A stretch of DNA of 64,000 nt, taken from the NCBI GenBank assembly GCA_963920635.1, contig OY987298.1, positions 69,399,949 through 69,463,948 of the forward strand, written 5' to 3'. A program made the position numbers and the translations under genes. Positions within the stretch are counted from its first letter, which is position 1. Every line of letters starts with the position of its first letter. The notes under the pieces were generated by a model. The model had not been told where the DNA came from. It saw only the letters and a program-made list of their open reading frames with translations, and ran no database searches. This document shows, in pieces, positions 1,983-34,792 of the stretch. This DNA is from Pseudeuparius sepicola (Eukaryota > Arthropoda > Insecta > Coleoptera > Anthribidae).

Positions 1983-1988
1983 TACGTA
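1983..1988. other. Target-site duplication TACGTA, left
   Basis: TACGTA directly precedes the giant palindromic element, and an identical copy follows it at 16951-16956. The uninterrupted locus in copy 2 has a single TACGTA at 24173-24178, which defines the insertion to the base. Confidence 0.92.
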
Positions 1989-2040
1989 AGTAGTAATACA
2001 AAGAGAGTTCTAACCCACGACCTTGAAAAAAGCGTGCAAA

Positions 2041-2310
2041 GTGGCTAAGTCATGCCCGAGGTCACGTGACGTCACCGGATGACCCCAGTTGACCCCTAGA
2101 TCCTGATAGATTAACCTTTGACCTTTGGGCCACGTGTGACCCCCAGTTGACCCCCCCCCCCACTCCAACGGCGGGTGTCAGCCCCCACTCCAACGACGGG
2201 GCAACCCCCACTCCAACGGCTTGATGGGGTGAGGTCTATATATTCGTGCGCAAGAGCAGTTTTCCCGTTATATACACTTACAATTTCCTACAGTCTGATT
2301 TGCCGAGTTC
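2041..2310 (+). promoter_or_regulatory. Terminal promoter/enhancer of the small-gene cassette, left arm
   Basis: An E-box CACGTG (2063-2068) overlaps a perfect CRE, TGACGTCA (2067-2074). A second CACGTG lies at 2131-2136, and TTTGACCTTTGGG (2117-2129) resembles a nuclear-receptor half-site. Repeated CCAGTTGACCCC words follow, then three copies of CCCCACTCCAACG (about 2157-2220). A TATATATT box lies at 2235-2244, a second TATATA at about 2270, and an initiator-like CAGTCTG at about 2291. The ATG of the 102-aa ORF is at 2314. Factor binding is inferred from the motifs only. Confidence 0.6.
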
Positions 2311-2313
2311 AAA

Positions 2314-2622
2314 ATGCAGTCGTTCCTGAATCACCTGAACAAGAATTTGATCTTCAAGAAATTCGAAAGCGTTCAAAATATGGAGGTGGGTGAAAATTTT
2401 CAAATCACGAGCGTGGACAAAGTCAACACGCAATACGGAGAGAAGGTCTACGTCGAGTTCGAAGAATTTAAGACGGTGCTGCCGCAACGATACACGGCCG
2501 AGTTTACGCCCCAACGGATCGAAGAAATTAATAGGGATATCGGTAACGGAAGGAGGTATTACATGAAGAGTCTTGGACCCGTCGGCCGATCTACAAATAT
2601 CGAATTTATTGTAGAACCATGA
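2314..2622 (+). CDS. 102-aa small protein of the palindromic element, left copy
   Basis: The sequence shows an intact 102-codon ORF behind a TATA-type promoter, ending in TGA at 2620-2622. The identical ORF lies inverted at 16318-16626. Its codon usage is more GC-rich than the surrounding arm, as expected for a maintained gene. The protein has an N-terminal basic stretch (NHLNKNLIFKKF), a probable beta-rich middle (KYG-type turn YGEKVYVEF near residue 42) and a LPQRYTAEF segment. There is no signal peptide and no membrane segment. I recall the pattern TKxG...FLPxRY from small ORFs of insect repetitive elements and think a small OB-like nucleic-acid-binding fold possible, but this is weak inference. 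Function unknown. The start at 2314 is the first ATG of the frame that follows the promoter. Confidence 0.7.
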   Translation: MQSFLNHLNKNLIFKKFESVQNMEVGENFQITSVDKVNTQYGEKVYVEFEEFKTVLPQRYTAEFTPQRIEEINRDIGNGRRYYMKSLGPVGRSTNIEFIVEP

Positions 2623-2741
2623 CGAAGCTGGAGTACAGAAGAAAACTGCAACAATATTTGAAGAATTTAGAAGCATTGAAATATGAACTTATGTTATATG
2701 AAATTAAAATGAAGATAAAACATATTGACTTACACAATTAA
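2619..2741 (+). CDS. 40-aa helical small protein overlapping the 102-aa ORF, left copy
   Basis: The stop of the upstream ORF overlaps this start as ATGA (2619-2622). The 40-residue product begins MTKLEYRRKLQQYLKNLEAL and is rich in Leu, Lys, Glu and Tyr with heptad-like spacing, so a single amphipathic helix or short coiled coil is likely. TAA at 2739-2741 is followed after 5 nt by AATAAA. The same arrangement is kept in the right arm. ATGA overlaps are known in viruses and compact transposons, where a terminating ribosome restarts. That mechanism here is inference, and so is the coding status of so short an ORF. Confidence 0.5.
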   Translation: MTKLEYRRKLQQYLKNLEALKYELMLYEIKMKIKHIDLHN

Positions 2742-2746
2742 TTTTT

Positions 2747-2752
2747 AATAAA
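2747..2752 (+). terminator. PolyA signal of the small-gene cassette, left arm
   Basis: AATAAA starts 6 nt after the stop of the 40-aa ORF and is followed by a GT/T-rich stretch (about 2767-2782) that fits a downstream element. Confidence 0.65.
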
Positions 2753-3701
2753 CGTTTAAAAATCTTTTGTTGTGTTTTTTTATAAGAATCTTTGTGTTGA
2801 AGGGAAAACACCTGAAGCATCATATTATAATAAAACTCTCACTCTAAGCAATAATATCACTCTATTCCACTGTTATGTGTATACAGGGTGATTCTTAACT
2901 TATACACATAATAGGAGGAACGGAGGCCGAAGGCCTCCGTCCGACTGGCATGTAGTTGCCCGAACAAAATCCACCCTTCCCCCTTGCACGCGTTTCGCGC
3001 ATGCGCAGTTCCGCACTTTTAATACCTATGAAAATTCGAAAAATTTTGAAAATTTTTTATTCAAAAAATGTAATTTTAAAAAGGTCCTGATCCTATAATC
3101 CCGATAACATTTTGGGAAATTTTCATTTTTTGACGGTGAAATGTACAAGACAAGACTCAGACGAATGTTTTATATACAAGTGCAGATAGAATTTTTTCGA
3201 GTGACTGATAAAAACAGTTATTATAATAGTTAGTCGGAAGGCCCCAGATAACATAGGAAATTTTGTTTGAACAAAATCTGTAAAAAAAATCCAAGACGTG
3301 AAAATGTAGGTAGAATTTTCGAATAAGTTTTGTATACCGGTAAAAATATATGTAAAGGTAAAAATAACGTCAGTTTCACTTGGAAAAAAATGATGAAAAA
3401 ATTTCAGTAAAAAAAATACGATGTAGAGGTTGTACCAAAAAAAAATTGGAAATAATTATTTATTCCAGTAAAATATACACAAGACCGAAAAAGGTAATTG
3501 CGCGGCTGTCCCATTTTATACACCCTAACTGTTTCAGTTCATCTCGTTTGGAAAAATTGTAGGGGTTATTACTTTTTTAAATACCGGTTTCCTCAACCTT
3601 ATTTGAAAGTAAATATTTTTTAGTTCCCCACAGAAGGAAATAATGACGATATTTTATACCGGTGGATTCAAAAAATATATAAGGTTAGGAAAAAACCTTG
3701 G
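2753..3701 (+). repeat. Outer arm region with diverged repeat units
   Basis: No gene. Includes a perfect GC-rich hairpin built on CGGAGGCCGAAGGCCTCCG (about 2936-2956), a CAGGGTG word near 2885, diverged copies of the ~155-bp repeat seen at 8090-9365 (3140-3340), and a CTGTCCCATTTTATA word at 3506. Mirrored in 15239-16187. Confidence 0.5.
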
Positions 3702-3703
3702 TA

Positions 3704-4971
3704 AAGCCTATTCATTTAATTTATACCCTGACGTCATCGTTTGGTGTTTTTTGCTGCCAATATAAATTCTAGTGACACTACAAAAATGCCACACAACTAA
3801 TAGTTAATTTTCATCTGTCATGTTGGCATAATAGGGCTGGGTTGCAATAATAATATTCAAATTTTTCGTTAAAATTTTGACACAGTTTGTCACTTAATTT
3901 TAAAAATGCCGCGCAAGATAGGTTCTCAAAATCTTGATAAACGCGCGCAGGGTATGGTGCGTGCTTTGAGCGAATATTTTGAGAGGGAAAGGGAAAACGG
4001 GGGTCGGCTGCTTCCGCTTTGTGCTGTAAAAGATGTAAGTACTTTTTATTTTATTTCACTGATATAAATTTCGATAATTTCTAAAAAATCATATTTTTGT
4101 TTCTATTTAAGAGGGTTGCAGCAGCTCTAGGAATTAGTTTTGACACGGTCAAAACAATTATTTCAAAAGGACCAGCTACTCGAACTGCAAGGAGAGAAAG
4201 AAAAAACCTGTACCTATCAACATTGATGATTTCGAACAGACAGCAATCCGAAATGTGATATATGAAATGTATATAGGGACAGTATGTTAAAGAATTTTGC
4301 CAATTAGCCCCAATATGCGTCTAATTTTATAATTATTCTTTTAGAAAAGCACTTTACAGTGAACGCCCTAAAAGCGAAATTAGAAGAAAGAGATATTTTT
4401 CATGGTGGTAGAACATCTTTATGGAAAATATTGAGGAACATTGGATTTAAGTTCCGCAAAGATGATCCTCGACGTGGACTTTATGGAGGTGCCTATAATA
4501 TTGCCATAAAACGTATTAAATTTTTAAGAAATCATATGCAAGCAAAAAGAGAAGAAACACGAGAGTTTGTTTACTTGGAAGAAACATGGATTTTCCAAGA
4601 TTTTCCAAGATTTTGAATTAAGGGAAATATTTTCTTTGTAAATTTCCACTGCTTTATTTTTACATAAAGGCGTATCAGATGGTCCAAAAAATTTTTTAAA
4701 TTAATTATTCGGAAATAGTGAATTTTTTTCATTTTTAAGTACCTATTAACACAGAATAGCTGTGGTATTAAGCTTTTCCTCATTTTTATTCACATGGCCT
4801 ATTAAGGTTTCATATTAAGAAAACACAGTGTACATTAACTAACCTGTAAATGGTTTAAAAGTCAAATATTGTGGCAGCTGAAGTCTTCGTATTTGCAATT
4901 TGTCATAAAGTTTGGCAACGCTGTTATGCTAGTATCGATGACGTCAGGGTATAAATTAAATGAATAGGCTT
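3704..4971 (+). mobile_element. Tc1/mariner-type transposon inserted in left arm
   Basis: 1268 bp with inverted repeats of about 36 bp starting AAGCCTATTCATTT and ending in its complement, flanked by TA at 3702-3703 and 4972-4973. The right arm reads CCTTGGTAGGCAAAC (complement, about 15233-15247) with a single TA, so it preserves the empty site. The insertion therefore came after the two arms existed, and arm-to-arm conversion has not spread or erased it. It contains a broken transposase. Confidence 0.93.
3906..4616 (+). pseudogene. Tc1/mariner (IS630-type) transposase, intron-bearing, broken
   Basis: Three exons are readable. Exon 1 (3906-4034) starts MPRKIGSQNLDKR and ends AVKD before GTAAGT. 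Exon 2 (4112-4281) gives a helix-turn-helix (RVAAALGISFDTVKTI) and ends before GTATGT. Exon 3 (4350-4616) has the LKAKLEERDIF and SLWKILRNIGFKFRK blocks and VYLEETWIF, where the family has LDETW with the first catalytic Asp, so Asp is replaced by Glu. A 1-nt frameshift lies in the A run near 4200. The frame stops shortly after the first catalytic motif, and the remaining DDE/D domain is missing. It is inactive; movement would need a transposase supplied in trans. Confidence 0.75.
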
Positions 4972-4973
4972 TA

Positions 4974-5326
4974 GGCAAACGCGGCTCTGCTGACCAGACA
5001 AAAAAAAAACCTTAGTCGACAAATAATGGCCTATAAGAAGGGTGCGTGATTCCACGTATCAGTTCGAGTGCTCCAAGATGCAAGTAAGTATATACCAGCT
5101 GTCCCATTTTTAAACAGCTAGATATTTGGAAACCTTTCGTAAAAAAATTCCCAAGGATTACATGAGCAAAAGAAAGAAAAAAATGTAAATATACTAGCTG
5201 TCCCATTTATAAACCGCTTGATATCTTGGAAACGAAAACTTATATAAAGGAAGTAAAAGCTATATCTTAATAGGCGGAGGACCGACTGTCATTCAGACAG
5301 GTGAAAATTTTTTGTGATTTTTTGTA
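4974..5326 (+). other. Arm segment with CTGTCCCATTT words
   Basis: No gene. Words close to CTGTCCCATTTATA occur at about 5099 and 5198, as also at 3506 and 6484, each followed by an AGATATTTGGAAA-like sequence in the two central copies. Confidence 0.45.
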
Positions 5327-5717
5327 GAAGTTTTTTTGCCAAAATTTTTTTTTACCAAAATTTTTTTTTACCAAAATTTTTGTTTTGCAAAATTTTTTTT
5401 TGTCAAATTTTTTTTTGCAAAATTTTTTTTCCCAAATTTTTTTTTCGTCAAAACTTTTTTCCCCAAATTTTTTTTTGTAAAATTTTTTTTTTGACAATTT
5501 TTTTTGCCAAAATTTCTTTTTGCCAAATTTTTTTTTGCCAAATTTTTTTTTTGTCAAAATTTTTTTTGTCAAAATTTTTTTTTGCCAAATTTTTTTTTTG
5601 TCAAAATTTTTTTTTGTAAACTTTTTTTTGACATTTTTTTTGCCAAATTTTTTTTTGTCGAATTTTTTTTTGCCATTTTTTTTCGCCAAATTCTTTTTCG
5701 ACAAAATTTTTTTTGAT
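5327..5717 (+). repeat. Low-complexity GCCAAAATTTTTTTT array, left arm
   Basis: About 28-30 degenerate units of 12-15 bp, of the form GCCAAA or GTCAAA followed by a T run. It is open in several frames (Phe/Lys-rich translations), but this is a repeat artefact, not a gene. The right-arm counterpart is about 59 bp longer. Confidence 0.9.
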
Positions 5718-8089
5718 ACAAATATAATTGCTAACGTTTAATTTGTTTACCCCATTTACGAAAATGATAACAAAATTGGATCAGACAAGATGTTTTTTCG
5801 AAGTATAGTTTTTAAACACAGGGTGCCACCACCGGTTTTACGATATAGGTTTCAAAATGCGACGCAAGTACATAAAAAAAATACCCTAGAGATAAGAAAA
5901 CAAAATACAACTCACCGAAAGATTCTTGATGATGTATAAAAAGAAATCAGGTTACATCTAATGCCCCAGACAGTAAAATAAACATCCCCGAGCTATCAGA
6001 TATAACCAAACATCATTTTTCTAACGGCACAGTCATTTTCACGGGAAAAACAACCAGTAACCGTTTAAATTCCATAGATAGGTACTGCCGTAATCGAAAA
6101 TTTCACTGAACTACGCGTATCTATTATACTGAAGTAGGTACTGATACACTTCCATCTTTCCAAAGAAAAACAAACACGAAACTCAGACTTTTCATATATT
6201 TATTACAACGCCTCGATAGAGTCTTTATCTGTGGCCACGACCGAGAATCTACTGAAGCAAGTGCGACGCATAGGACGTGAAAAGTGCCGAGTTGGTTTTA
6301 TTAAACGATGAAACTTATACCTACGTATATATAAAATAAATGAGAAATATGCCAGAGATGTGAAACCTAATTGTGTTGCAAGTTTGAGGGTCCAAAAAAA
6401 ATATTGGCTTTAATTTTTTAAGGTGAGAAACACATCTAACAGCCAGTTTGGAAATATACAAGGCAAAAAAAGTAGTGATGTGGCTGTCCCATTTTATGTT
6501 TTATACAGGTTGGGTTATTTTAGAATAGTTGTTCAATAGACCGAGACAACATCATAAACGCTTCCCGTTAGAACAGAATCTGATGAAAAGAAAAATTCCA
6601 TCTGGGTCAAGCTACTACATAACCAAAATAAAAAATACTGAACGTTATAAAATTTAAAAAATCATATTTTCAACGGATTTTTATCCTCTGAAAATTGTTC
6701 TTGTGTAAAATTCAGTTTCACTGGGTCAAGCTAGGTGGTAACTATATAACCAAAATAAAAAATACTGAACGTTATAAAATTTAAAAAATCATATTTTCAA
6801 GGGATTTTTGTCCTCTGAAAATTGGTTTTGTGTAAATTGAGTTTCAATAAGTTACTAATTGAGATAATAGGAAAAAAATCTTAAGAATCTCTTATAGAAT
6901 TCTGAGACAACGACCCTGAGAGTAAATATCATACAAAAATCTTTGTGCGTTGACTTTCAACTCAATTTAATAATTAGGTTTAATAATGACAATTTTCTCG
7001 ATTATCTAGAATCAAAAATATTGCGAGTGGCAATTCACAATTTTCTAGATATCATGTGAAGCCTTAATTTTGCGTCGTAAGTTAGAGGATCCAAAAATAT
7101 TGGCTTAAATTGTTTAGTAAATGCGATTAAAATATGTTTAGTTTATCAACAGTTAATTGTAACAGCTTATAATCTTAGAAGCTAAACTCTTTAAAAAAAT
7201 TTTTAGACAAAAAGTTGTAGTTTAATAATGGTCAGTTGGATTCCTTTTGAATCATGTTTGCATATTACCTACAAGGAGTTACAACCTCAAAACATAGAAA
7301 TCGCTCATTTTAAACCGATTTAATAAAAATTTCACCAAAACAATACTTTCACTCATATGATACACTTCTGATTAATAAAAAAGGCACCATAGGTAGTAAT
7401 AATAAGATATTCAACGGAATTTTTATCGACTGTTTGCCCATTTTGCTAGCTTTTGGGGGTATTCCTTGATATTTTAGACCGATAAAAATGAATAATAAAA
7501 ATTTCACCAAAACAATACTTTCACTCATATAATACACTTCTGATTAATAAAAAAGGCACCATAGGTAGTAGTAATAAGATATTCAACGGAATTTTTATCG
7601 ACTGTTTGCCCATTTTGCTAGCTTTTGGGGGTATTCCTTGATATTTTAGACGGATAAAAATGAATAACTAAAATACAAAACGCACTGTTGACTTTACTTA
7701 CGTGAATAGTAAGCCTATAATACGTATCGAAAACAGAGAAATATTCAGGTCAAGAAAAAAATGGCCTAATTTACAAGTTTGTAAATCAAAAACTACCTTT
7801 TGGCTTTTCATTTTGATGAGAAAATACGTCTAATTAGTAAGTCAAATAAATGGGACATCATGAAAGATATACTAATAATTGAACAAATGCTATCTTAGTT
7901 CTATAGGCAGAAAGGTACTATGGGTAGTAATAGTTTTGGGATCAAAAGACGACCTGTTAGCTTTTAAATTTGTTAAGAAAATACGTCTAATGAAATCGAA
8001 AGTAGTAACTAGGTTTTGGTTAACATTTCGTTAACGCGTTGATGAATAAGAATGCAAGTGAAAAGTAGACCGAATTTCCCAAAAAACGG
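5718..8089 (+). other. Left-arm interior, no gene
   Basis: AT-rich and without convincing ORFs. Holds short direct duplications: a ~120-bp pair around 6605-6720 and 6721-6840 (both with AACGTTATAAAATTTAAAAA), and a ~165-bp pair at 7330-7495 and 7496-7665 (both with TTTTGCTAGCTTTTGGGGG). Mirrored in 12062-14434. Confidence 0.5.
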
Positions 8090-9365
8090 TGAGTGACCAA
8101 ACAAGTTATTATAAAAAGTGGCTCGGGAGACCGATGTAACCTAGAAAACGCCTTTCCTTCGAATAGAAAGTAAAAAAAAGTTGCAAAATGGGACTTAGAT
8201 GAATATTTGATGCAAGTGAAAAGTAGGCAGAATTTTCGAAAATCGGGGACGGATCAAAAAATATTAAGTTGATCGGGAGGTTGAGATAACCTATGAAACA
8301 CCTTTCATTCCGACAGAATCTGACAAAAAATTCCAAGAAAATTTTAGACGACTGTTTGCAAGTGAAAAGTATACATAATTTTTTTGAAAAAACTGAGACT
8401 GACCAAAAAAAATAGATATTAGAAAATTTTGCTCGGGAGATCGAGGTAACATAGAAAACGCCTTTCATCCGAATATAATCTGAAATAAATTCCGAGATGG
8501 GACTTAGACGAATGTTTGATGCAAGTGGAAAGTAGACCGAATTGCCGAAAAACGCGGGAGGTCGAGGTAACCTAGGAAAAACGCCTTTTATTCGAACAGA
8601 ATCTGACAAAAAAATCCAAGACGAATGTTTGATGCAATTGAAAGGTAGACAGAATTTTAGAAAAACGGCAACTGATCAAAAAAATATATATTCGAAAATT
8701 TTGGTCGGGAGCCCGAGGTAACCTAGAAAACGCCTTTCGTTCTAACAGAATCCGACAAAAAAATTCCAAGACGGGATGGTAGTGGGACGAATGTTTGACG
8801 GAAGTTAAAAGTAGACAGAATATTAAAAAACGAGAACCGACCAAATAGTTATTAGAAAAAGTGGCTCAGGAGGTCGAGGTAACCTAGGAAATGCCTTTAG
8901 TTTGAAAAGAATCTGACAAACAAAAAATCCAAGACGAATATTTGATGCAATTGAAAGGTAGACAGGATTTTAGAAAAACGGCAACTGATCAAAAAAATAT
9001 ATATTCGAAAATTTTGGTCGGGAGCCCGAGGTAACCTAGAAAATGCCTTTCGTTCGAACAGAATCCGACAAAAAAATTCCAAGACGGGATGGTAGTTGGA
9101 CGAGTGTTTGACGCAAGTTAAAAGTAGACAGAATATTAAAAAACGAGAACCGACCAAATAGTTATTAGAAGAAGTGGCTCGGGAGGTCGAGGTAACCTAG
9201 GAAATGCCTTTCGTTCGAACAGAATTCGACAAAAAAAAATTCCAAGACATGACTTAGAAAAATATTCATTTGATGCAGATGAAAAAGAGACAGCATTTCC
9301 AAAAAAAACTTCGACTGACCTAAAAGTTATTAGAAAAAGTTGCTCGGGAGGCCGATGTCTAGCAA
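8090..9365 (+). repeat. Tandem array of ~155-bp units, left arm
   Basis: About eight diverged units marked by CGAGGTAACCTAG words near 8131, 8280, 8438, 8562, 8713, 8874, 9027, 9188 and a partial one at 9352. Each has GTTCGAACAGAATC, a CCAAGACG word and an ACAGAATTTT word. Short ORFs here are by-products of the periodicity. The right arm holds the mirror array. Confidence 0.88.
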
Positions 9366-9477
9366 AATATAACACCATTGCACCAGAGTTATTTCCATCT
9401 ACGTAACATTATTGGCGTGGTGGTCGACTAATCGCGTTCACTATTAAATTAATTATGACTGGTCAAATACGTATATA

Positions 9478-9880
9478 ATGCAAATTAAAAAACGCTTTAA
9501 CGAAGCGTTTACAATGCGTTAACGAGGATTGACAGCGCGTTAACGAGGCGTTACCAACGCGTTTAACGCGTGAAAGAAGCGTTATCAACGTGTTAAACGC
9601 GTGAAAGAAGCGTTATTCATGCGTTACGCGTTAACGAAGCGTTATCAACGCGTTAACAACGCGTTATCCATGCGTTAACTACTAGTTATCGATTCGTTAA
9701 CAATGCGTTAACGAACAACGCATTAACGAACAACGCGTTAACGAAACGTTAACGACGTGTCAGCAAAGTTTTAACAAAGCGTTAACGAAGCTTTAACATC
9801 GCGTCAATGCGTTAAGACGCGTTAAAACCGCGTTAACGAATCTTTGACGACGCATTAACGAAGCGTTGACGAGTGTGGAA
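9478..9880 (+). repeat. CpG-rich GTTAACGCGTTAACGAAGC array, left of centre
   Basis: Twenty-odd degenerate ~12-20-bp repeats built from GTTAAC and AACGCGTT words, each nearly self-complementary. CpG density is far above the surrounding AT-rich DNA. Its position about 170 bp from the axis of symmetry suggests a binding or replication role, but no function is shown. Confidence 0.85.
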
Positions 9881-10054
9881 GTGCGTGGACCCTCCAACTC
9901 CCAGAATCGCAACTTACACCAGATCAAACTCAACTGTGGAATCTTGTGACGTCACAGAGATGCTACTTTACATTTCTTTTAAGTAGTTAACCTAACCTAA
10001 CATTATTGTCGCGGTGACCAAGAGGTTATCGACTGGTGAACCGATTGCCATTGG

Positions 10055-10096
10055 ATTTGGGAGAGGTGTATCAAAGGCGGATTAAGTCAGTTTTGA
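10055..10096. other. 42-bp single-copy spacer at palindrome centre
   Basis: The only unpaired part of the element. The left arm ends ATTGCCATTGG (10054) and the right arm starts CCAATGGTAAT (10097), with one mismatch in the last bases. Just outside it on each side is TTAGGTTAGGTTA, two units of the insect telomere motif. Confidence 0.9.
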
Positions 10097-10271
10097 CCAA
10101 TGGTAATCGGTTCACCAGTCGATAACCTCTTGGTCACCGCGACAATAATGTTAGGTTAGGTTAACTACTTAAAAGAAATGTAAAGTAGCATCTCTGTGAC
10201 GTCACAAGATTCCACAGTTGAGTTTGATCTGGTGTAAGTTGCGATTCTGGGAGTTGGAGGGTCCACGCACT

Positions 10272-10673
10272 TCCACACTCGTCAACGCTTCGTTAATGCG
10301 TCGTCAAAGATTCGTTAACGCGGTTTTAACGCGTCTTAACGCATTGACGCGATGTTAAAGCTTCGTTAACGCTTTGTTAAAACTTTGCTGACACGTCGTT
10401 AACGTTTCGTTAACGCGTTGTTCGTTAATGCGTTGTTCGTTAACGCATTGTTAACGAATCGATAACTAGTAGTTAACGCATGGATAACGCGTTGTTAACG
10501 CGTTGATAACGCTTCGTTAACGCGTAACGCATGAATAACGCTTCTTTCACGCGTTTAACACGTTGATAACGCTTCTTTCACGCGTTTAACGCGTTGGTAA
10601 CGCCTCGTTAACGCGCTGTCAATCCTCGTTAACGCATTGTAAACGCTTCGTTAAAGCGTTTTTTAATTTGCAT
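10272..10673 (-). repeat. CpG-rich GTTAACGCG array, right of centre
   Basis: Mirror of 9478-9880. Confidence 0.85.
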
Positions 10674-10785
10674 TATATACGTATTTGACCAGTCATAATT
10701 AATTTAATAGTGAACGCGATTAGTCGACCACCACGCCAATAATGTTACGTAGATGGAAATAACTCTGGTGCAATGGTGTTATATT

Positions 10786-12061
10786 TTGCTAGACATCGGC
10801 CTCCCGAGCAACTTTTTCTAATAACTTTTAGGTCAGTCGAAGTTTTTTTTGGAAATGCTGTCTCTTTTTCATCTGCATCAAATGAATATTTTTCTAAGTC
10901 ATGTCTTGGAATTTTTTTTTGTCGAATTCTGTTCGAACGAAAGGCATTTCCTAGGTTACCTCGACCTCCCGAGCCACTTCTTCTAATAACTATTTGGTCG
11001 GTTCTCGTTTTTTAATATTCTGTCTACTTTTAACTTGCGTCAAACACTCGTCCAACTACCATCCCGTCTTGGAATTTTTTTGTCGGATTCTGTTCGAACG
11101 AAAGGCATTTTCTAGGTTACCTCGGGCTCCCGACCAAAATTTTCGAATATATATTTTTTTGATCAGTTGCCGTTTTTCTAAAATCCTGTCTACCTTTCAA
11201 TTGCATCAAATATTCGTCTTGGATTTTTTGTTTGTCAGATTCTTTTCAAACTAAAGGCATTTCCTAGGTTACCTCGACCTCCTGAGCCACTTTTTCTAAT
11301 AACTATTTGGTCGGTTCTCGTTTTTTAATATTCTGTCTACTTTTAACTTCCGTCAAACATTCGTCCCACTACCATCCCGTCTTGGAATTTTTTTGTCGGA
11401 TTCTGTTAGAACGAAAGGCGTTTTCTAGGTTACCTCGGGCTCCCGACCAAAATTTTCGAATATATATTTTTTTGATCAGTTGCCGTTTTTCTAAAATTCT
11501 GTCTACCTTTCAATTGCATCAAACATTCGTCTTGGATTTTTTTGTCAGATTCTGTTCGAATAAAAGGCGTTTTTCCTAGGTTACCTCGACCTCCCGCGTT
11601 TTTCGGCAATTCGGTCTACTTTCCACTTGCATCAAACATTCGTCTAAGTCCCATCTCGGAATTTATTTCAGATTATATTCGGATGAAAGGCGTTTTCTAT
11701 GTTACCTCGATCTCCCGAGCAAAATTTTCTAATATCTATTTTTTTTGGTCAGTCTCAGTTTTTTCAAAAAAATTATGTATACTTTTCACTTGCAAACAGT
11801 CGTCTAAAATTTTCTTGGAATTTTTTGTCAGATTCTGTCGGAATGAAAGGTGTTTCATAGGTTATCTCAACCTCCCGATCAACTTAATATTTTTTGATCC
11901 GTCCCCGATTTTCGAAAATTCTGCCTACTTTTCACTTGCATCAAATATTCATCTAAGTCCCATTTTGCAACTTTTTTTTACTTTCTATTCGAAGGAAAGG
12001 CGTTTTCTAGGTTACATCGGTCTCCCGAGCCACTTTTTATAATAACTTGTTTGGTCACTCA
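10786..12061 (-). repeat. Tandem array of ~155-bp units, right arm
   Basis: Mirror of 8090-9365, with the same number of units. Confidence 0.88.
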
Positions 12062-14434
12062 CCGTTTTTTGGGAAATTCGGTCTACTTTTCACTTGCATT
12101 CTTATTCATCAACGCGTTAACGAAATGTTAACCAAAACCTAGTTACTACTTTCGATTTCATTAGACGTATTTTCTTAACAAATTTAAAAGCTAACAGGTC
12201 GTCTTTTGATCCAAAACTATTACTACCCATAGTACCTTTCTGCCTATAGAACTAAGATAGCATTTGTTCAATTATTAGTATATCTTTCATGATGTCCCAT
12301 TTATTTGACTTACTAATTAGACGTATTTTCTCATCAAAATGAAAAGCCAAAAGGTAGTTTTTGATTTACAAACTTGTAAATTAGGCCATTTTTTTCTTGA
12401 CCTGAATATTTCTCTGTTTTCGATACGTATTATAGGCTTACTATTCACGTAAGTAAAGTCAACAGTGCGTTTTGTATTTTAGTTATTCATTTTTATCCGT
12501 CTAAAATATCAAGGAATACCCCCAAAAGCTAGCAAAATGGGCAAACAGTCGATAAAAATTCCGTTGAATATCTTATTACTACTACCTATGGTGCCTTTTT
12601 TATTAATCAGAAGTGTATTATATGAGTGAAAGTATTGTTTTGGTGAAATTTTTATTATTCATTTTTATCGGTCTAAAATATCAAGGAATACCCCCAAAAG
12701 CTAGCAAAATGGGCAAACAGTCGATAAAAATTCCGTTGAATATCTTATTATTACTACCTATGGTGCCTTTTTTATTAATCAGAAGTGTATCATATGAGTG
12801 AAAGTATTGTTTTGGTGAAATTTTTATTAAATCGGTTTAAAATGAGCGATTTCTATGTTTTGAGGTTGTAACTCCTTGTAGGTAATATGCAAACATGATT
12901 CAAAAGGAATCCAACTGACCATTATTAAACTACAACTTTTTGTCTAAAAATTTTTTTAAAGAGTTTAGCTTCTAAGATTATAAGCTGTTACAATTAACTG
13001 TTGATAAACTAAACATATTTTAATCGCATTTACTAAACAATTTAAGCCAATATTTTTGGATCCTCTAACTTACGACGCAAAATTAAGGCTTCACATGATA
13101 TCTAGAAAATTGTGAATTGCCACTCGCAATATTTTTGATTCTAGATAATCGAGAAAATTGTCATTATTAAACCTAATTATTAAATTGAGTTGAAAGTCAA
13201 CGCACAAAGATTTTTGTATGATATTTACTCTCAGGGTGGTTGTCTCAGAATTCTATAAGAGATTCTTAAGATTTTTTTCCTATTATCTCAATTAGTAACT
13301 TATTGAAACTCAATTTACACAAAACCAATTTTCAGAGGACAAAAATCCCTTGAAAATATGATTTTTTAAATTTTATAACGTTCAGTATTTTTTATTTTGG
13401 TTATATAGTTACCACCTAGCTTGACCCAGTGAAACTGAATTTTACACAAGAACAATTTTCAGAGGATAAAAATCCGTTGAAAATATGATTTTTTAAATTT
13501 TATAACGTTCAGTATTTTTTATTTTGGTTATGTAGTAGCTTGACCCAGATGGAATTTTTCTTTTCATCAGATTCTGTTCTAACGGGAAGCGTTTATGATG
13601 TTGTCTCGGTCTATTGAACAACTATTCTAAAATAACCCAACCTGTATAAAACATAAAATGGGACAGCCACATCACTACTTTTTTTGCCTTGTATATTTCC
13701 AAACTGGCTGTTAGATGTGTTTCTCACCTTAAAAAATTAAAGCCAATATTTTTTTTGGACCCTCAAACTTGCAACACAATTAGGTTTCACATCTCTGGCA
13801 TATTTCTCATTTATTTTATATATACGTAGGTATAAGTTTCATCGTTTAATAAAACCAACTCGGCATTTTTCACGTCCTATGCGTCGCACTTGCTTCAGTA
13901 GATTCTCGGTCGTGGCCACAGATAAAGACTCTATCGAGGCGTTGTAATAAATATATGAAAAGTCTGAGTTTCGTGTTTGTTTTTCTTTGGAAAGATGGAA
14001 GTGTATCAGTACCTACTTCAGTATAATAGATACGCGTAGTTCAGTGAAATTTTGGATTACGGCAGTACCTATCTATGGAATTTAAACGGTTACTGGTTGT
14101 TTTTCCCGTGAAAATGACTGTGCCGTTAGAAAAATGATGTTTGGTTATATCTGATAGCTCGGGGATGTTTATTTTACTGTCTGGGGCATTAGATGTAACC
14201 TGATTTCTTTTTATACATCATCAAGAATCTTTCGGTGAGTTGTATTTTGTTTTCTTATCTCTAGGGTATTTTTTTTATGTACTTGCGTCGCATTTTGAAA
14301 CCTATATCGTAAAACCGGTGGTGGCACCCTGTGTTTAAAAACTATACTTCGAAAAAACATCTTGTCTGATCCAATTTTGTTATCATTTTCGTAAATGGGG
14401 TAAACAAATTAAACGTTAGCAATTATATTTGTAT
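12062..14434 (-). other. Right-arm interior, no gene
   Basis: Mirror of 5718-8089. Nothing coding seen. Confidence 0.5.
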
Positions 14435-14882
14435 CAAAAAAAATTTTGTCGAAAAAGAATTTGGCAAAAAAAAATGGCAAAAAAAAATTTGACAAAAAAA
14501 AATTTGGCAAAAAAAATGTCAAAAAAAAGTTTACAAAAAAAAATTTTGACAAAAAAAAAATTTGGCAAAAAAAAATTTTGACAAAAAAAATTTTGACAAA
14601 AAAAAATTTGGCAAAAAAAAATTTGGCAAAAAAAAATTTGGCAAAAAGAAATTTTGGCAAAAAAAATTGTCAAAAAAAAAATTTGACAAAAAAAAATTTG
14701 GGGAAAAAAGTTTTGACGAAAAAAAAATTTGGGAAAAAAAATTTTGCAAAAAAAAATTTGACAAAAAAAAATTTTGCAAAATAAAAATTTTGGTAAAAAA
14801 AAATTTTGGTAAAAAAAAATTTTGGCAAAAAAAAAATTTTGGCAAAAAAAAATTGACAAAAAAAAATTTTGGCAAAAAACTT
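14435..14882 (-). repeat. Low-complexity array, right arm (expanded)
   Basis: Mirror of 5327-5717 but about 59 bp longer, equal to roughly four extra units. Extra GGCAAAAAAAAATTT units lie around 14600-14650 and 14820-14880. Confidence 0.88.
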
Positions 14883-16187
14883 CTACAAAAAATCACAAAA
14901 AATTTTCACCTGTCTGAATGACAGTCGGTCCTCCGCCTATTAAGATATAGCTTTTACTTCCTTTATATAAGTTTTCGTTTCCAAGATATCAAGCGGTTTA
15001 TAAATGGGACAGCTGGTATATTTACATTTTTTTCTTTCTTTTGCTCATGTAATCCTTGGGAATTTTTTTACGAAAGGTTTCCAAATATCTAGCTGTTTAA
15101 AAATGGGACAGCTGGTATATACTTACTTGCATCTTGGAGCACTCGAACTGATACGTGGAATCACGCACCCTTCTTATAGGCCATTATTTGTCGACTAAGG
15201 TTTTTTTTTTGTCTGGTCAGCAGAGCCGCGTTTGCCTACCAAGGTTTTTTCCTAACCTTATATATTTTTTGAATCCACCGGTATAAAATATCGTCATTAT
15301 TTCCTTCTGTGGGGAACTAAAAAATATTTACTTTCAAATAAGGTTGAGGAAACCGGTATTTAAAAAAGTAATAACCCCTACAATTTTTCCAAACGAGATG
15401 AACTGAAACAGCTAGGGTGTATAAAATGGGACAGCCGCGCAATTACCTTTTTCGGTCTTGTGTATATTTTACTGGAATAAATAATTATTTCCAATTTTTT
15501 TTTGGTACAACCTCTACATCGTATTTTTTTTACTGAAATTTTTTCATCATTTTTTTCCAAGTGAAACTGACGTTATTTTTACCTTTACATATATTTTTAC
15601 CGGTATACAAAACTTATTCGAAAATTCTACCTACATTTTCACGTCTTGGATTTTTTTTACAGATTTTGTTCAAACAAAATTTCCTATGTTATCTGGGGCC
15701 TTCCGACTAACTATTATAATAACTGTTTTTATCAGTCACTCGAAAAAATTCTATCTGCACTTGTATATAAAACATTCGTCTGAGTCTTGTCTTGTACATT
15801 TCACCGTCAAAAAATGAAAATTTCCCAAAATGTTATCGGGATTATAGGATCAGGACCTTTTTAAAATTACATTTTTTGAATAAAAAATTTTCAAAATTTT
15901 TCGAATTTTCATAGGTATCAAAAGTGCGGAACTGCGCATGCGCGAAACGCGTGCAAGGGGGAAGGGTGGATTTTGTTCGGGCAACTACATGCCAGTCGGA
16001 CGGAGGCCTTCGGCCTCCGTTCCTCCTATTATGTGTATAAGTTAAGAATCACCCTGTATACACATAACAGTGGAATAGAGTGATATTATTGCTTAGAGTG
16101 AGAGTTTTATTATAATATGATGCTTCAGGTGTTTTCCCTTCAACACAAAGATTCTTATAAAAAAACACAACAAAAGATTTTTAAACG
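14883..16187 (-). other. Right outer arm, no gene; contains mariner empty site
   Basis: Mirror of 2753-5326 without the mariner. The TA at about 15239-15240 is the unoccupied counterpart of the insertion at 3702/4973. Confidence 0.6.
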
Positions 16188-16193
16188 TTTATT
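16188..16193 (-). terminator. PolyA signal of the small-gene cassette, right arm
   Basis: Reads AATAAA on the minus strand, 6 nt past the 40-aa ORF stop. Confidence 0.65.
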
Positions 16194-16198
16194 AAAAA

Positions 16199-16321
16199 TT
16201 AATTGTGTAAGTCAATATGTTTTATCTTCATTTTAATTTCATATAACATAAGTTCATATTTCAATGCTTCTAAATTCTTCAAATATTGTTGCAGTTTTCT
16301 TCTGTACTCCAGCTTCGTCAT
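16199..16321 (-). CDS. 40-aa helical small protein, right copy
   Basis: Same 40-aa ORF as 2619-2741 on the other arm, with the same ATGA overlap with the upstream ORF (16318-16321). Intact, with no difference seen. Confidence 0.5.
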   Translation of the reverse strand: MTKLEYRRKLQQYLKNLEALKYELMLYEIKMKIKHIDLHN

Positions 16322-16626
16322 GGTTCTACAATAAATTCGATATTTGTAGATCGGCCGACGGGTCCAAGACTCTTCATGTAATACCTCCTTCCGTTACCGA
16401 TATCCCTATTAATTTCTTCGATCCGTTGGGGCGTAAACTCGGCCGTGTATCGTTGCGGCAGCACCGTCTTAAATTCTTCGAACTCGACGTAGACCTTCTC
16501 TCCGTATTGCGTGTTGACTTTGTCCACGCTCGTGATTTGAAAATTTTCACCCACCTCCATATTTTGAACGCTTTCGAATTTCTTGAAGATCAAATTCTTG
16601 TTCAGGTGATTCAGGAACGACTGCAT
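16318..16626 (-). CDS. 102-aa small protein of the palindromic element, right copy
   Basis: The translated protein is identical to that of 2314-2622. Both copies point from the element end inward, so the element carries two divergently placed cassettes reading toward its centre. Conservation of the reading frame in both arms shows the sequence was intact when the arms formed, but does not by itself prove selection. Function unknown. Confidence 0.7.
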   Translation of the reverse strand: MQSFLNHLNKNLIFKKFESVQNMEVGENFQITSVDKVNTQYGEKVYVEFEEFKTVLPQRYTAEFTPQRIEEINRDIGNGRRYYMKSLGPVGRSTNIEFIVEP

Positions 16627-16629
16627 TTT

Positions 16630-16900
16630 GAACTCGGCAAATCAGACTGTAGGAAATTGTAAGTGTATATAACGGGAAAACTGCTCTTGCGCACGAATAT
16701 ATAGACCTCACCCCATCAAGCCGTTGGAGTGGGGGTTGCCCCGTCGTTGGAGTGGGGGCTGACACCCGCCGTTGGAGTGGGGGGGGGGTCAACTGGGGGT
16801 CACACGTGGCCCAAAGGTCAAAGGTTAATCTATCAGGATCTAGGGGTCAACTGGGGTCATCCGGTGACGTCACGTGACCTCGGGCATGACGTAGCCACTT
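16630..16900 (-). promoter_or_regulatory. Terminal promoter/enhancer, right arm
   Basis: Mirror of 2041-2310: TATA box 16696-16705, CCCCACTCCAACG repeats about 16720-16785, and overlapping CRE/E-box at 16865-16876. The C run differs by one base from the left arm. Confidence 0.6.
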
Positions 16901-16950
16901 TGCACGCTTTTTTCAAGGTCGTGGGTTAGAACTCTCTTTGTATTACTACT

Positions 16951-16956
16951 TACGTA
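16951..16956. other. Target-site duplication TACGTA, right
   Basis: Partner of 1983-1988; the flank after it (ACTACCTGTTGG) matches copy 2 from 24179. Confidence 0.92.
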
Positions 16957-19900
16957 ACTACCTGTTGGATTTTATTTTTCCCTAAATTTACCGCCATGGC
17001 ACCAGGTTTGGCAACGCCGCCCCTCAATGCCAAGCTGTCAGCCTGCGAAAACATAAACATAACCTATTTTGTGGAGTCACAAATCGGAATATCGGATCTC
17101 GGATCCCGAGGCCCCGCGTGTTTTACAAGCTTTTATTTTTTATGATTTGAACTATTTTCACCATTCATTCTAATAATCCATGACGGAAATGAACCATTCT
17201 ATTTTGCTGAGGAAAATGCTGGGAACACTAGGTATTGGTATTGATGATTCGGACGTTATGCTGGTTGGTTTACAAAACTTTTTTTTATAGGAAACAAGTC
17301 GATTTTATCTATAAAACGACACAATTCGTAAGTACCTAACTGAACTTGCATAAATTAAATATCTAGACTTGCTGATATATTAAAGACAATAGAGAACCAA
17401 CCAGGTGTAACATTTTAGCTGAAGATTTTAGATTAGTGGCTCTGCCAAACGATTTTTTACTTGTTATCAAGTATATTCCACCGACTGCTAGTTGTTTGAA
17501 GAAACTGATGATATTTTAGCCTCAATACCTAGTGTCGCAGAATAAATAGCTTCACCTGTTTATATATTATATTATAAACTAAACTGAGAAAAGTTAATCC
17601 TATAGACGTCAAGCACTTACCTGGTCCGAATATAAAAAAATTATTACTTTAATTTCATGAGCCCTTACTTACAAGAAGTAGTTAGACCTGCATCGGTTCA
17701 AAAATGTAACGCTAGAATATTGGAGAAGGTGCCAGTTCTTGGCGATGTTAGAAATATAACATGTAAAACGCAATAAAGCCAAGTTTTCAGTCGAAAAACT
17801 TTATTGTCATAGCTTGAACTATTTTAGACCCATTTAGGTAAATTATATTGTGATTGCCGAAGCATCCTCATAAAAAATGAGAATTTTTTCACTATACATA
17901 TTATACCTATATTCATTCTGGAAAATAAATTTTCATAAGCATATTTTGTGATTGTGGTTAATAGAAGTTAAAAATAAAAAAATATAATGCAGCAGCCAGC
18001 AAAAAATTAAGATTTCTTTAATTTGCAAGAAAAAAAAAACATTATTTTGCACTCTATGGCAGAACCTCAAATAAGTTATCTATTAAATTTAGTGAAAATA
18101 TTCCAAAATCAAATAATACAGTTTTCATGTCGCATGCACAGAGTGTAACAAACTGGATTTTTTTGGGGGGTTTCTTCTATTCTGGGAAGAGATGGACAAA
18201 GAGTAGGTAGGTGTACTGTGCTCGATTTTTGAGGGCAATGGAAAGCAGTTGAATCTCAAAATCTCGATTCGTTTCGGAGATACAGGGCATTTTTCGTTTT
18301 TTCCCTCCTTGTAATACGTTTTGATTTTTGCCAAAAATCTTCCTTCATACTACTCCAACGTATAATAATTATTGAGGTATGTTGGTATGTCTTTGTCAAC
18401 TATCCTGTAAGGTAGACTTTCATATTTTTTTATTGCACTTGTGTTGACTTTTTCCAATATAACAATCTACTGATGTTGTCCATGATTCTTCGCTATTTCC
18501 AGGAAGTCAGCAAAGAAAAGCAATACCTTGCTTACATTCATCTAAAATAAGTTTTCCATTAATATGTACCTACCTGCAAAAATTTTACAAGCGTACTTAG
18601 TTCTATTATTAGTTGACAAAGTTAATGTCACTAGTGCAGAAAAGTACAACTTTCCGCATCAAAATGGATGCGACAAAGTGTACTACTACGGACTTAATTA
18701 CTTAAATACTTCATTAGATCATACAAATACCCGCAAAAACTAGTCATTGACGGTCAAGCACTTGATATCGAATGAAACTCTGCTGTCGAACTTGCACTAG
18801 ATTATTTAAATTAGTTCTTAATCATGGTTCTCACATGTAGATATCAACGATCGTTTTTACAAACGCATGATTTCTTGTTTTGATAATCGATTTCAACATT
18901 GGGGTGTGCGACACCCCCATGCCCCCTCCCCCATATCTTAACTATAGGTATATACACAATAAGTATTTCTTTACTGTACTAGCAACTAAACTAGAAGCAC
19001 AAAAAGCTGTAACTACGTATGTGCCACGATGTATGATCCTCGTACATCGTGGTATGTGCATAATTTAGGACTAATCTGCTTATGTTGGGTAATTACAACA
19101 TAATATACCTACTTCCACAACTATTCAGTTGAATTTCTTCATTTTTAACCACAGTGTCATTAACATTTTTCTTATTAATTTTGTGCTCGGGGGTAATTTT
19201 TGCCTTAACCGGGCATTATGCATTCATTGCTATGTTCTTTCCTCTGCGTGTCTCCAATAACATTGCTACCATAATATTTATTCTCTAGTCTACCTAAAAC
19301 CAGAATTTAAGCTATATCATCATCATTAAGCAATATTAAAACAATATACAAATCAAATAACAAACATACCTCTTCATTTCTCCATGTTTTGCTCCCCGTT
19401 TTTATTGATAAAATTGACACACCATATCAAAATCTATGCAAGGCAAGTTATCAGGACAAGCTTTAACAAATCTTGTCTTCATTATAAACCGAAAAAATAA
19501 AGTATTCACAGCAAGATTCTTTTAAAACTAAGAATAGAATTTATGTAGTTTTCACTAAGGTTATTAACCTTGGTTTCCGCGTTCCGCCGGCGAAAGTGAG
19601 GTTATATGCAAAGTGCGGCGTTGCCGATGATTTTCTTTAAAGCATTGAGTAATATGTCATCTGTCATATTTTATAGGGGGCATCTAATAAGTTCAGAATG
19701 GGATCAGTAAAATCCAAATATTTCATTGAAATGCTACGAAATTTGATTATTTCTCATCAGGCGCATACAAACTGAATCTAATAATTTGCCTGGGAATGCT
19801 TGGTTATATAAAAAAAGACGAAATAAGTACTAAGAAAATAGCAGGTACTTATTGAAATTAGGGATCGTGACGTCACATTCCCTACTTTTGCGACCGTTTT

Positions 19901-20123
19901 TTTCAATTTTTGAGCAAACTAATGGGAAAAAAAATCTGTTGGTTGGGTTTCGTGATTATCTAGACATGTTTTACAAATTCCAAGGCAAAAAATTATTTTT
20001 CATTCCTAAGTATACTTGTCCATTGTTATGTCGATTTGTTTTCCATGTCACTGCCAAAGATAAAGAAAGCACGAAGAGATTATTTTTTGTCGATGTCGAC
20101 ATCTTCAATAGCATAAGTACCTA
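16957..20123 (+). other. Duplicated-unit flank, copy 1, no firm gene
   Basis: No supported gene. A short ATG-led stretch at about 17180-17291 (MTEMNHSILLRKMLGTLGIG...) has a coding look but no confirmed exon boundaries. The GC-richer stretch 16990-17130 ends in GAGGCCCCGCGTG. A near-perfect hairpin ACGATGTATGATCCTCGTACATCGT lies at about 19026-19050. Repeated in 24179-27370. Confidence 0.4.
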
Positions 20124-20159
20124 TACAGGGTGGCCCACCACGAACTGCATCGATCTATA

Positions 20160-21273
20160 CAGGGTGGAACTGAATCATGGTACACCCCACTTTTTTCCCT
20201 TGTTTTTTGAGATACAATTTTGAAATTTGGCATGTCGATGTTACTTTATAAATGTCACTTTTTGACGTGTAAATTCATTTATTTCCGCTTCCGGTTTTAC
20301 CGGAAGTGACATTCACTTTTGTTTTTTAAATTGAACACCCTGTATATTATTTAAGTTTCTGATTCTCCTCGATGTACTGAAACCAACGATGCCTCACAAG
20401 TGACATTTTGGCTGACAGAAAGTGGTTTTTCTTTAACTTATTTGGATTTTTAATAATAAACTAAGGTGGCTATGAAACAAATGAACTTCGACAAACTGAA
20501 CATCTTTAATGAACTGTCAAACCGTCTGTCTACAGAAAAGTACTTCTCTTATAATAAACTACGGTATCAATGTGTTGTCGACTAAAACAATTGCAAAAAT
20601 AGTGCTTGCAAAATGTCTCAAAGTTAGAAAAGATCGGAAAAAGTGGATATGTTGCTGATTTATGGAGAGTGCCAAAAAATGCCGTTGTTGCTAAAAACTT
20701 GTACGCCAAACGATATCCTTATCCTGAAAGACAATGCCCTGCAAGAAATAATTATTTACACCGCCTGAAAACGTAACTTAGAATAGAGCCAAAATTAATC
20801 TTGTGTAAGTTTGCGGCATTTTGCAAACACTATTTTTGCAATTGTTTTAGTTAACAACACATTGATACCGTAGTTTATTATAAGAGAAGTACTTTTCTGT
20901 AGACAGACGGTTTGACAGTTCATTAAAGATGTTCAGTTTGTCGAAGTTCATTTGTTTCATAGCCACCTTTAGTTTATTATTGCAAATCCAAATAAGTTAA
21001 AGAAAAACCACTTTGTGTCAGCCAAAATGTCACTTGTGACGCATCGTTGGTTTCAGTACAGGGAGGAGAATCCGAAACTTAAATAATATACAGGGTGTTC
21101 CATTTAAAAAACAAAAGTGAATGTCACTTCCGGTAAAACCGGAAGCCGAAATAAATGAATTTACACGTCAAAAAGTGACATTTATAAAGTAACATCAACA
21201 TGCCAAATTTCAAAATTGTATCTCAAAAAACAAGGGAAAAAAGTGGGGTGTACCATGATTCAGTTCCACCCTG
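20160..21273 (+). mobile_element. CAGGGTGGAAC-tipped mariner-like element, inner, copy 1
   Basis: 1114 bp with TA on both sides (20158-20159, 21274-21275). Arms of about 450 bp: 20160-20612 pairs with about 20815-21273. Within each arm, about 35 bp from a CAGGGTGTTC word, is a CTTCCGGTTTTACCGGAAG-type palindrome. The centre holds a transposase remnant. Confidence 0.82.
20613..20776 (+). pseudogene. DUF4817-type helix-turn-helix remnant of a mariner-like transposase, copy 1
   Basis: Reads MSQS, then a TAG stop, then KRSEKVDMLLIYGECQK. A 1-nt frameshift follows in the A run near 20678, then NAVVAKNLYAKRYPYPERQC to a stop at 20774-20776. The YGEC...A...LYAxRYP signature is the N-terminal DNA-binding domain found with IS630/mariner-type DDE transposases of insects. 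The catalytic domain is absent. This explains the TA duplication and CAGGGTG tips of the surrounding element. Confidence 0.6.
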
Positions 21274-21876
21274 TATATGGAAAAATAAAAGTAGTAAAAT
21301 TATAAAAATAGGAAACCTTACACAAAGTTGTCATCATTTTTAGTGGTGAATAAGATCGCAATAAAAAAAATGGGGGTTTCCATTTGAAAATTTCGAGATT
21401 TTAGCACATTTTGAATGTAATTTTTATTCATATTTTGTGAACACCCTGTATAAGAACGGATTTATTTCTCAGCAGAGATCACTACGTCAGGGCATCTGTT
21501 ACTCGATGCCAGAAATTCGTTTTGAAATTTCACGGTTTCCTCGTATAAATTGCTAATTGACTTTAGGTCTGTACCTGTAATTTTTTTTGGAAAAATGCAA
21601 ATAGCTCAAAAACGGTTGGATTTAGACATAGGACATGTTGCATGTTTTTGTTCCAAAATGATGCCTAGAATCCAAAAATGCAATAATATACAGGGTGTTC
21701 CATTTGAGATAAGAAAGTTGATATCGACTTCCGGTATAACCGGAAATGCCAGATTCACCAAAATATTTTAGTTGAGCAGCGCCCATCGGCATTGGTGAGG
21801 TGCCAAATTTTCATAATTTTACTACTTTTAGTTTTCCATATATAGATCGATGCAGTTCGTGGTGGGCCACCCTGTA

Positions 21877-22474
21877 TAAATAGAAAAGTTGTTTGCACTT
21901 TGTTTTTCGGATAAACTCTCTTCATTTTTTTAATGTATTTATCTCTTTTTTTTTTACCTCTAACAGAACTAATGTGCGATATGCATTGTTATTTTTTCTT
22001 TACCTATTAACATAATTTATCTGATAACAATGATGTAGATATATAATTTATTGTTCACTCATTACTTTTTTGAATTCCTAACTATAATATTAGCATGATG
22101 TACAGTTCACAGTGTGCGACCTGTGTATTCATTTACATTATATAATTAATAGTGGATATTGTAGTGGGTCATTCCCTGACCTGTAGTATCCCTGTTGTCC
22201 AAATAAATAAATAAATAAACATCTACCGGTCAAATCTCAATGGTTACTGAGATACAGGGCGTTGAAATTCATTTTTTTAAATTGAATTATGGCTATATCT
22301 CCCAAAATAATGAAGCTCCTAAACTGAAATTTGGCACTGTTATATTTATGGGGATGGAGTTGTAAATTTCATTGTATCTCATAGAGGGCGCCACTTGCTT
22401 TGTTTTTGGATCGTGCTTTTACTTGTAACTTTGTTGAGGTCATCTTTTTGGTCTTGCAGGTCCATCATTCTAAT
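21877..22474 (+). other. Flank with AAAT-repeat tail, copy 1
   Basis: No gene. CCAAATAAATAAATAAATAA at about 22198-22218, after 3'-UTR-like sequence, looks like the tail of a non-LTR element. The final CATCATTCTAAT is the duplication boundary. Confidence 0.45.
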
Positions 22475-22480
22475 AAAAAA
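22475..22480. other. Junction of the tandem duplication (A6)
   Basis: The end of unit 1 (ATCATTCTAAT) is joined to the start of unit 2 (CATATCTATT) through AAAAAA, which is found at neither outer boundary (291 and 29722). Confidence 0.8.
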
Positions 22481-24021: not shown

Positions 24022-24172
24022 ATCCTTGAGACATTGTAACTACATGAATGGACTAATACACCACTTTTTTTTATTTGCTCATGGGATAGTATTGGGTGAG
24101 ATATACTTGCTGTATTTTTTTAAATTTTTTTTTCGCCCCCGTTTTGCCGCAATTAATTTTTAAAGTTCAATA

Positions 24173-24178
24173 TACGTA
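24173..24178. other. Empty insertion site of the giant palindromic element
   Basis: Single TACGTA between sequence matching 1982 leftward and 16957 rightward. Confidence 0.92.
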
Positions 24179-27100: not shown

Positions 27101-27370
27101 GAAATTAGGGATCGTGACGTCACATTCCCTACTTTTGCGACCGTTTTTTTCAATTTTTGAGCAAACTAATGGGAAAAAAAATCTGTTGGTTGGGTTTCGT
27201 GATTATCTAGACATGTTTTACAAATTCCAAGGCAAAAAATTATTTTTCATTCCTAAGTATACTTGTCCATTGTTATGTCGATTTGTTTTCCATGTCACTG
27301 CCAAAGATAAAGAAAGCACGAAGAGATTATTTTTTGTCGATGTCGACATCTTCAATAGCATAAGTACCTA
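24179..27370 (+). other. Duplicated-unit flank, copy 2
   Basis: Same content as 16957-20123. Near 24785-24820 it carries CTGTGCTAGTGTTAATC-type sequence where copy 1 has a shorter TATATTATATTA stretch. Confidence 0.5.
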
Positions 27371-27406
27371 TACAGGGTGGCCCACCACGAACTGCATCGA
27401 TCTATA

Positions 27407-34640: not shown

Positions 34641-34792
34641 ATGGTAAAAACAGAACAAGTGTTCTCTGGTAAAGATAAAGATATTGTGCTCCCTTAACTT
34701 ACAGCAAATGAATAAAATAATAATTTTTTAAGAATATTGTTTTTCGAGCTTCCTACAAGACTTTATATCTCTTACGTTTTCATTGGTTAAAT

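Follow-up and report, generated by a model that had tools for sequence, protein, structure and literature searches.

The DNA analysed here is a window of 64,000 nucleotides from contig OY987298.1 of the beetle Pseudeuparius sepicola (Anthribidae), and its principal feature is a palindromic element of 14,962 bp (positions 1989-16950) in which two arms of about 6.8 kb flank a central spacer of 42 bp. When a nested 1,268-bp insertion and one TA are subtracted, 13,692 bp remain; the 13.7-kb inverted repeat, the arms and the spacer described in an earlier note on this sequence are thereby confirmed, with the insertion as an addition to the left arm. The parts of the element and of its target site are as follows.

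1983..1988, no strand: left target-site duplication TACGTA, 6 bp, single copy at the empty site
1989..10054, plus strand: left arm, 6.8 kb once the nested insertion is discounted, first bases AGTAGT
3704..4971, plus strand: Tc1/mariner-like insertion, 1,268 bp, in the left arm only, with 36-bp inverted ends and broken transposase-like frames, named by eye
10055..10096, no strand: central spacer, 42 bp, non-palindromic, probably the loop of the founding fold-back
10097..16950, minus strand: right arm, last bases ACTACT
16951..16956, no strand: right target-site duplication TACGTA, 6 bp, single copy at the empty site
24173..24178, no strand: empty target site within the tandemly copied flanks, with one TACGTA

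Results

An inserted palindrome and its empty site

The flanks of the element (290-1989 and 16951-22474) occur a second time, uninterrupted, at 22480-29722, where they are 99.8% and 99.4% identical to the originals and the element is absent. TACGTA is self-complementary, and taken alone the motif could be the tip of the inverted repeat. Since the empty site carries a single TACGTA, the pair bounding the element is a target-site duplication and not a repeat tip, as the note had proposed. The tandem copy of the flanks may be a true duplication or two haplotypes placed in series, and the site is empty under either interpretation. Between the flank copies, 7,211 aligned bases contain 20 substitutions; between the arms, 6,389 aligned columns (the low-complexity stretch 5321-5719 excluded) contain 8, along with 2 single-base gaps. 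These divergences would fit insertion of the element after the flanks were duplicated.

The arm substitutions are spread over the aligned blocks (3 in 1,713, 1 in 349, 3 in 2,057 and 1 in 2,270 columns), and the arms differ further in array length and by a mismatch at 10047. Over 2,120 bp the inner arm shows 100% complementarity after rounding, so a chance origin of the inverted repeat is not at issue. The spacer is flanked by seven paired bases, followed at the eighth base from the spacer by the G/A difference at 10047. A TA is duplicated around the Tc1/mariner-like insertion (3702-3703 and 4972-4973) and the right arm keeps the empty TA site, so the arms had separate histories, unlike those of a self-folded read.

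A dispersed family with a probable single founder palindrome

Searching the assembly (769 Mb, 16 contigs) with 611 bases of the left end and keeping the best 40 of 861 candidates, all 99-100% identical, yielded ends at no fewer than 29 places: 11 with both ends, the window included, and 18 with one end. The first bases are AGTAGTAATACAAAG in 39 of the 40 ends. Ten two-ended pairs were fetched besides the window; eight of nine were bounded by perfect 6-bp duplications and the tenth by none, which brings the perfect duplications to nine in the eleven copies with both ends read, no two of them alike. Most of the sequence 1989-7776 is common to every compared pair (from 4972 on in the tenth). Beyond 7776 two types can be distinguished. 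Type A, found at 7 of the 29 places, continues through 7777-10054 and then into its mirror image. It comprises the window, three further pairs (C3_62.45, C1_97.98 and C1_65.5) and three single-end places typed by a mid-arm sample, namely L052, where the spacer was read, and L058 and L064, where the mid-arm reads stop short of the centre and contain inner arm only. Type B (19 of the 29 places: seven paired copies and 12 of the 18 mid-arm samples) carries a centre of about 4.9 kb or part of it. In its reference copy, C4_55.65, some 463 bp more of inverted repeat past 7776 give way to this single-copy centre, giving arms of 5.6 kb; the centres of other type-B copies were read in part. Three mid-arm samples (L049, L059 and L060) were assigned to neither type. 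The earlier statement that everything in the element is arm thus describes the window copy and not the family, most of whose places have the type-B centre or a piece of it.

The 42-bp spacer is identical letter for letter in five copies, and in four of these the flanking seven bases and the G/A difference at 10047 are identical as well. Both sides of the spacer match over 30 compared bases in the window, C3_62.45 and C1_65.5; one side breaks off at 19 bases in L052 and at about 5 in C1_97.98, as after a deletion in one arm. The four paired type-A copies sit between different target duplications (TACGTA in the window; the others have TAGGAA, ATTGCA and GTGCAA). The same spacer in five copies, together with near-identical inner arms at loci with different duplications, is most simply explained if the palindrome was made once and then moved as a palindrome.

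Concerted change in the two arms

For type A we aligned eight arms from four pairs over 5,925 columns, leaving out the low-complexity array, some tandem repeats and the missing arm-pieces (C1_97_R twice, C1_97_L twice, C1_65_L once). All 27 of the substitutions present on exactly two arms lie on both arms of one copy. The single pattern that crosses copies is position 10047, which tracks the orientation of the spacer. The pattern suggests that changes spread between the two arms of a copy more quickly than new copies split off, the bases beside the spacer excepted. The type-B alignment (six pairs, three arm-pieces missing) gave two-arm patterns on mates in eight of nine cases and on non-mates in one. 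Here two sites near the inner edge of the repeat track how the centre is oriented, the first in 12 of 12 arms and the second in 11 of 12.

Other features of the arms

The arms contain further features, listed below in window coordinates.

2314..2622, plus strand: open reading frame (ORF) of 102 amino acids, left arm; preceded by a TATA-like sequence and followed by AATAAA, both by eye
16318..16626, minus strand: right-arm copy of the 102-amino-acid ORF
2619..2741, plus strand: ORF of 40 amino acids whose ATG overlaps the stop of the 102-amino-acid ORF; mirror copy in the right arm
2921..2939, no strand: hairpin (inner stem with GAA loop)
5331..5715, plus strand: array of 15-16-bp units; mirror array at 14435-14879
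7777..10054, plus strand: inner arm of type-A copies, not in the type-B pieces compared; type-B breakpoint just after 7776
8557..9248, plus strand: 313-bp tandem repeat, 2.2 copies
9491..9872, plus strand: AACGCGTTAAC-type repeats close to the centre

The hairpin with the GAA loop is strong (z -9.8 against shuffles; L009:1747-1810, the end by count) and occurs at the same site in other copies. Eight arm deletions with differing left ends all finish within about 20 bases of its left foot, and at least two others (L030 and L037) finish elsewhere. Just left of the hairpin, about 738 bp after 2911 are missing from both arms of the window; C3_62.45 has this segment in both arms and C1_65.5 in one, and the full distance at the site is kept in 25 of the 38 other ends. 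In L039, at about 894-2995, the arm is joined at this hairpin to a gypsy-like integrase/env-like stretch on the other strand (identified by eye), and the integrase stretch looks like a retroelement fragment. Two more copies deserve mention: C3_14.0 has a frame of 1,782 amino acids that is Pao/BEL-like by reading of the sequence, not by family search, and the 20 bases before L035 (C6:10914105) equal window positions 6731-6750, so that this copy seems to sit inside the arm of another.

Around the element, the tandem segment of about 7.2 kb (290-22474 and 22480-29722, with a 5-base join) carries reverse-transcriptase-like frames, and a U2 spliceosomal RNA gene lies on the minus strand at 34786-34978 (full-length match, 170 bits).

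Coding content

The pair of 102- and 40-amino-acid ORFs is the clearest gene-like feature of the arms. The 102-amino-acid protein is identical in 39 of the 40 ends, which were picked for similarity in that very stretch; the shorter frame is open in all 40, with 39 identical and one bearing two changes. Pfam gave nothing above cut-off for the 102-amino-acid ORF (the best, DUF3919, has an E-value of 0.039, below its cut-off), and no relative, solved or otherwise, was found in the collections searched, where animal genes may be scarce. A single-sequence model of the protein has low confidence (mean pLDDT 63) and the strand order of an OB-fold, and its comparison with PDB and BFVD gave no match reaching an E-value of 0.001; that it might bind single strands is only a guess. 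The type-B centre of C4_55.65 encodes a protein matching Acetyltransf_1 (E-value 3.5e-07) and a 171-amino-acid protein without a family, and for neither did the same collections yield a relative.

The window element and the single type-B centre examined, that of C4_55.65, yielded no recognisable polymerase or integrase. The longest ORF of the window element has 166 amino acids, and no stop-to-stop frame in the C4_55.65 centre exceeds 189 (multi-exon genes were not looked for). The ORFs scanned, two from the window element and four from C4_55, had no Pfam match to the RVE integrase, and no frame was long enough.

Relation to Polintons

In vertebrate Mavericks the commonest end motif is (AGT)2//(ACT)2, and intact copies have 6-bp duplications (PMC8097293); rve integrases typically leave duplications of this length, and Polinton terminal inverted repeats measure several hundred bp, with a filter in the same paper admitting up to 8 kb (PMC12220804). 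The usual gene set comprises pPolB, an RVE integrase, an ATPase and a protease (PMC4028283). The present element shares with Polintons/Mavericks its 6-bp target-site duplications, its AG...CT ends and its terminal inverted repeats, in a host genome rich in polymerase-B genes, and its AGTAGT...ACTACT ends match the motif of most vertebrate members (the comparison covers vertebrate members) (PMC8097293). It differs in that none of the usual genes was recognised in the scanned ORFs (no search was aimed at capsid genes), in its arms of 5.6-6.8 kb, and in the practical lack of a centre in type A. Since protein-primed PolB and RVE integrase were not recognised in the elements examined, the element can be called non-autonomous and Polinton-type at most. 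This much of the earlier note's proposal of a non-autonomous Polinton-like element draws support from the ends, the duplications, the lack of a recognised PolB or integrase in the elements examined, and the presence of PolB elsewhere in the genome; proof of membership would take a copy in which these ends go together with PolB and integrase.

For the genome 152 DNA_pol_B_2 matches are reported, many in open frames of 1,254-1,279 amino acids. Among the matches listed, fifteen polymerase-B stretches score 100.3, twelve of them in 1,254-amino-acid open frames, which looks like a recent Polinton expansion in the host genome. Among those listed, a single polymerase-B stretch is found within 20 kb of any of the 29 places, outside the start of the element (C1:79840207-79841463, with the family end at C1:79843318), and the element there may have inserted into a Polinton or next to one. 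Viral contigs gave no match to the opening 21 bases of the element.

Discussion

The element is probably a non-autonomous Polinton/Maverick-type element founded by a snap-back inverted duplication, with a helper and a hairpin stage as inferred parts of this interpretation. A strand of a longer linear relative would, while being replicated, have folded onto itself at a short, imperfect stem and been copied, doubling one end and about 6.8 kb of adjoining sequence around a 42-base loop in a single event; the difference at 10047 could then be a G-T mismatch of the folded founding stem. The region of the spacer does fold as expected for stem and loop, as any palindrome must, and the folding is no evidence for the mechanism. 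The product would replicate as a linear molecule, and its two identical AGTAGT ends would be inserted by a retroviral-type integrase acting in trans, leaving 6-bp duplications, with the Polintons of the same genome as the presumed suppliers. Between jumps the arms would most likely be equalised when a displaced single strand forms a long hairpin, within which mismatch repair takes place or one arm is copied anew; chromosomal gene conversion could be expected to leave a similar pattern. Protein-primed linear genomes, such as linear yeast plasmids and adenovirus, give palindromic or snap-back deletion derivatives. These resemble the present element in that one end is doubled around a short loop and the palindrome propagates; the present element differs in being chromosomal and multiplied there, and is known here from its inserted copies alone.

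Several observations weigh against this interpretation. Among the copies examined none is autonomous, with the same ends around PolB and integrase (no genome-wide search for ends was made), and no non-palindromic copy of the inner sequence was found (nor was the genome searched for the spacer). Two of the eleven copies (C3_14.0 and C1_98.67) have no target duplication. Both type-B arms reach 5.6 kb, so long repeats would not need a one-off snap-back. Equalisation in type B is of the same sort and weaker, and one of its arms, C2_68_L, has 43 private changes; in type A, substitutions on one arm are common (22 where both arms were available, 36 in all). Finally, the family was assembled from the best-scoring ends, which biases it towards youth and intactness and makes its copy numbers lower bounds.

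Could the arms of the same element have been kept alike by chromosomal gene conversion rather than a replicative hairpin? This is a real possibility, short of likely. Y-chromosome palindromes are kept alike in this manner; they share with the present element near-identical arms and an exempt spacer, and differ from it in that the latter is a dispersed mobile family, kilobases in size. Conversion predicts the same both-arm pattern with the spacer exempt, and the persistence of lesions in one arm (the mariner insertion, the one-arm deletions at the spacer) accords with it. The arms are young, yet all two-arm changes are on mates, and the type-B arms are equalised, more weakly, across 4.9 kb; both points speak against conversion, which could still accommodate them. 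Rather unlikely, in our estimate, is a parasite that depends on Polintons and replicates as a hairpin with one end, an arm of about 6.8 kb serving as template for the other in each cycle and the palindrome being restored with its arms identical; a helper integrase would accept and insert such a palindrome since both ends are the same good end. We consider it improbable that a cut-and-paste transposon of the Foldback type (Galileo/FB) is at work, with long, internally repetitive inverted repeats that lengthened through exchange among copies and were mobilised by an ordinary transposase. The present element resembles such transposons in being almost wholly inverted repeat and in the tandem sub-repeats of its long arms, shows signs of exchange among copies as in Galileo (PMC3573991), and has in C2_68_L an arm unlike its mate. 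Its duplications are 6 bp long, against 7 bp in Galileo (PMC3573991), its ends fit Mavericks (PMC8097293), and it has one founder palindrome and a fixed spacer. No transposase belonging to the element was recognised; this favours neither the Foldback nor the Polinton side.

The earlier note had also proposed an integrated head-to-head dimer of a linear replicon, in which the centre of symmetry is the other end; that natural end would be a hairpin telomere. The anatomy would fit a one-ended replicon, and a hairpin linear yeast plasmid was reportedly described by Kikuchi in 1985. We have set this origin aside as very improbable: no match of 100 bp or more was listed for centre against outer end, and sister copies have the same arms around a gene-bearing centre. 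A hairpin is possible as a replication intermediate. Long palindromes are also an assembly hazard, and a folded-back read or two haplotypes joined head to head might be suspected here, the more so as the duplicated flanks might represent two haplotypes end to end. This explanation is scarcely credible and was likewise dismissed, given the insertion in one arm, where the TA is duplicated, with a clean empty site opposite, the recurrence of the spacer at four further loci (three with both flanks read and duplicated), and the exact 6-bp duplication matched by an empty site.

Literature searches brought up no paper recognisable by its title or the start of its abstract as dealing with a palindromic Polinton, most subscription papers lying outside reach. 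Protein-primed replication of Polintons has been deduced mostly from their genes. A mobile palindrome with equal arms and an asymmetric spacer may be a natural record of Polinton-type replication, and with it a hairpin or panhandle stage becomes testable by sequence comparison and DNA blots. Were the one-ended hairpin parasite the truth, it would represent a Polinton analogue of defective-interfering genomes, maintained as a family of transposons in the germ line. Palindromes of about 14 kb and near-perfect symmetry are normally unstable, and the present analysis offers an explanation for how they could come to be scattered through a genome. The palindrome also suggests that an element practically without a centre is able to spread, in which case two good ends would suffice.

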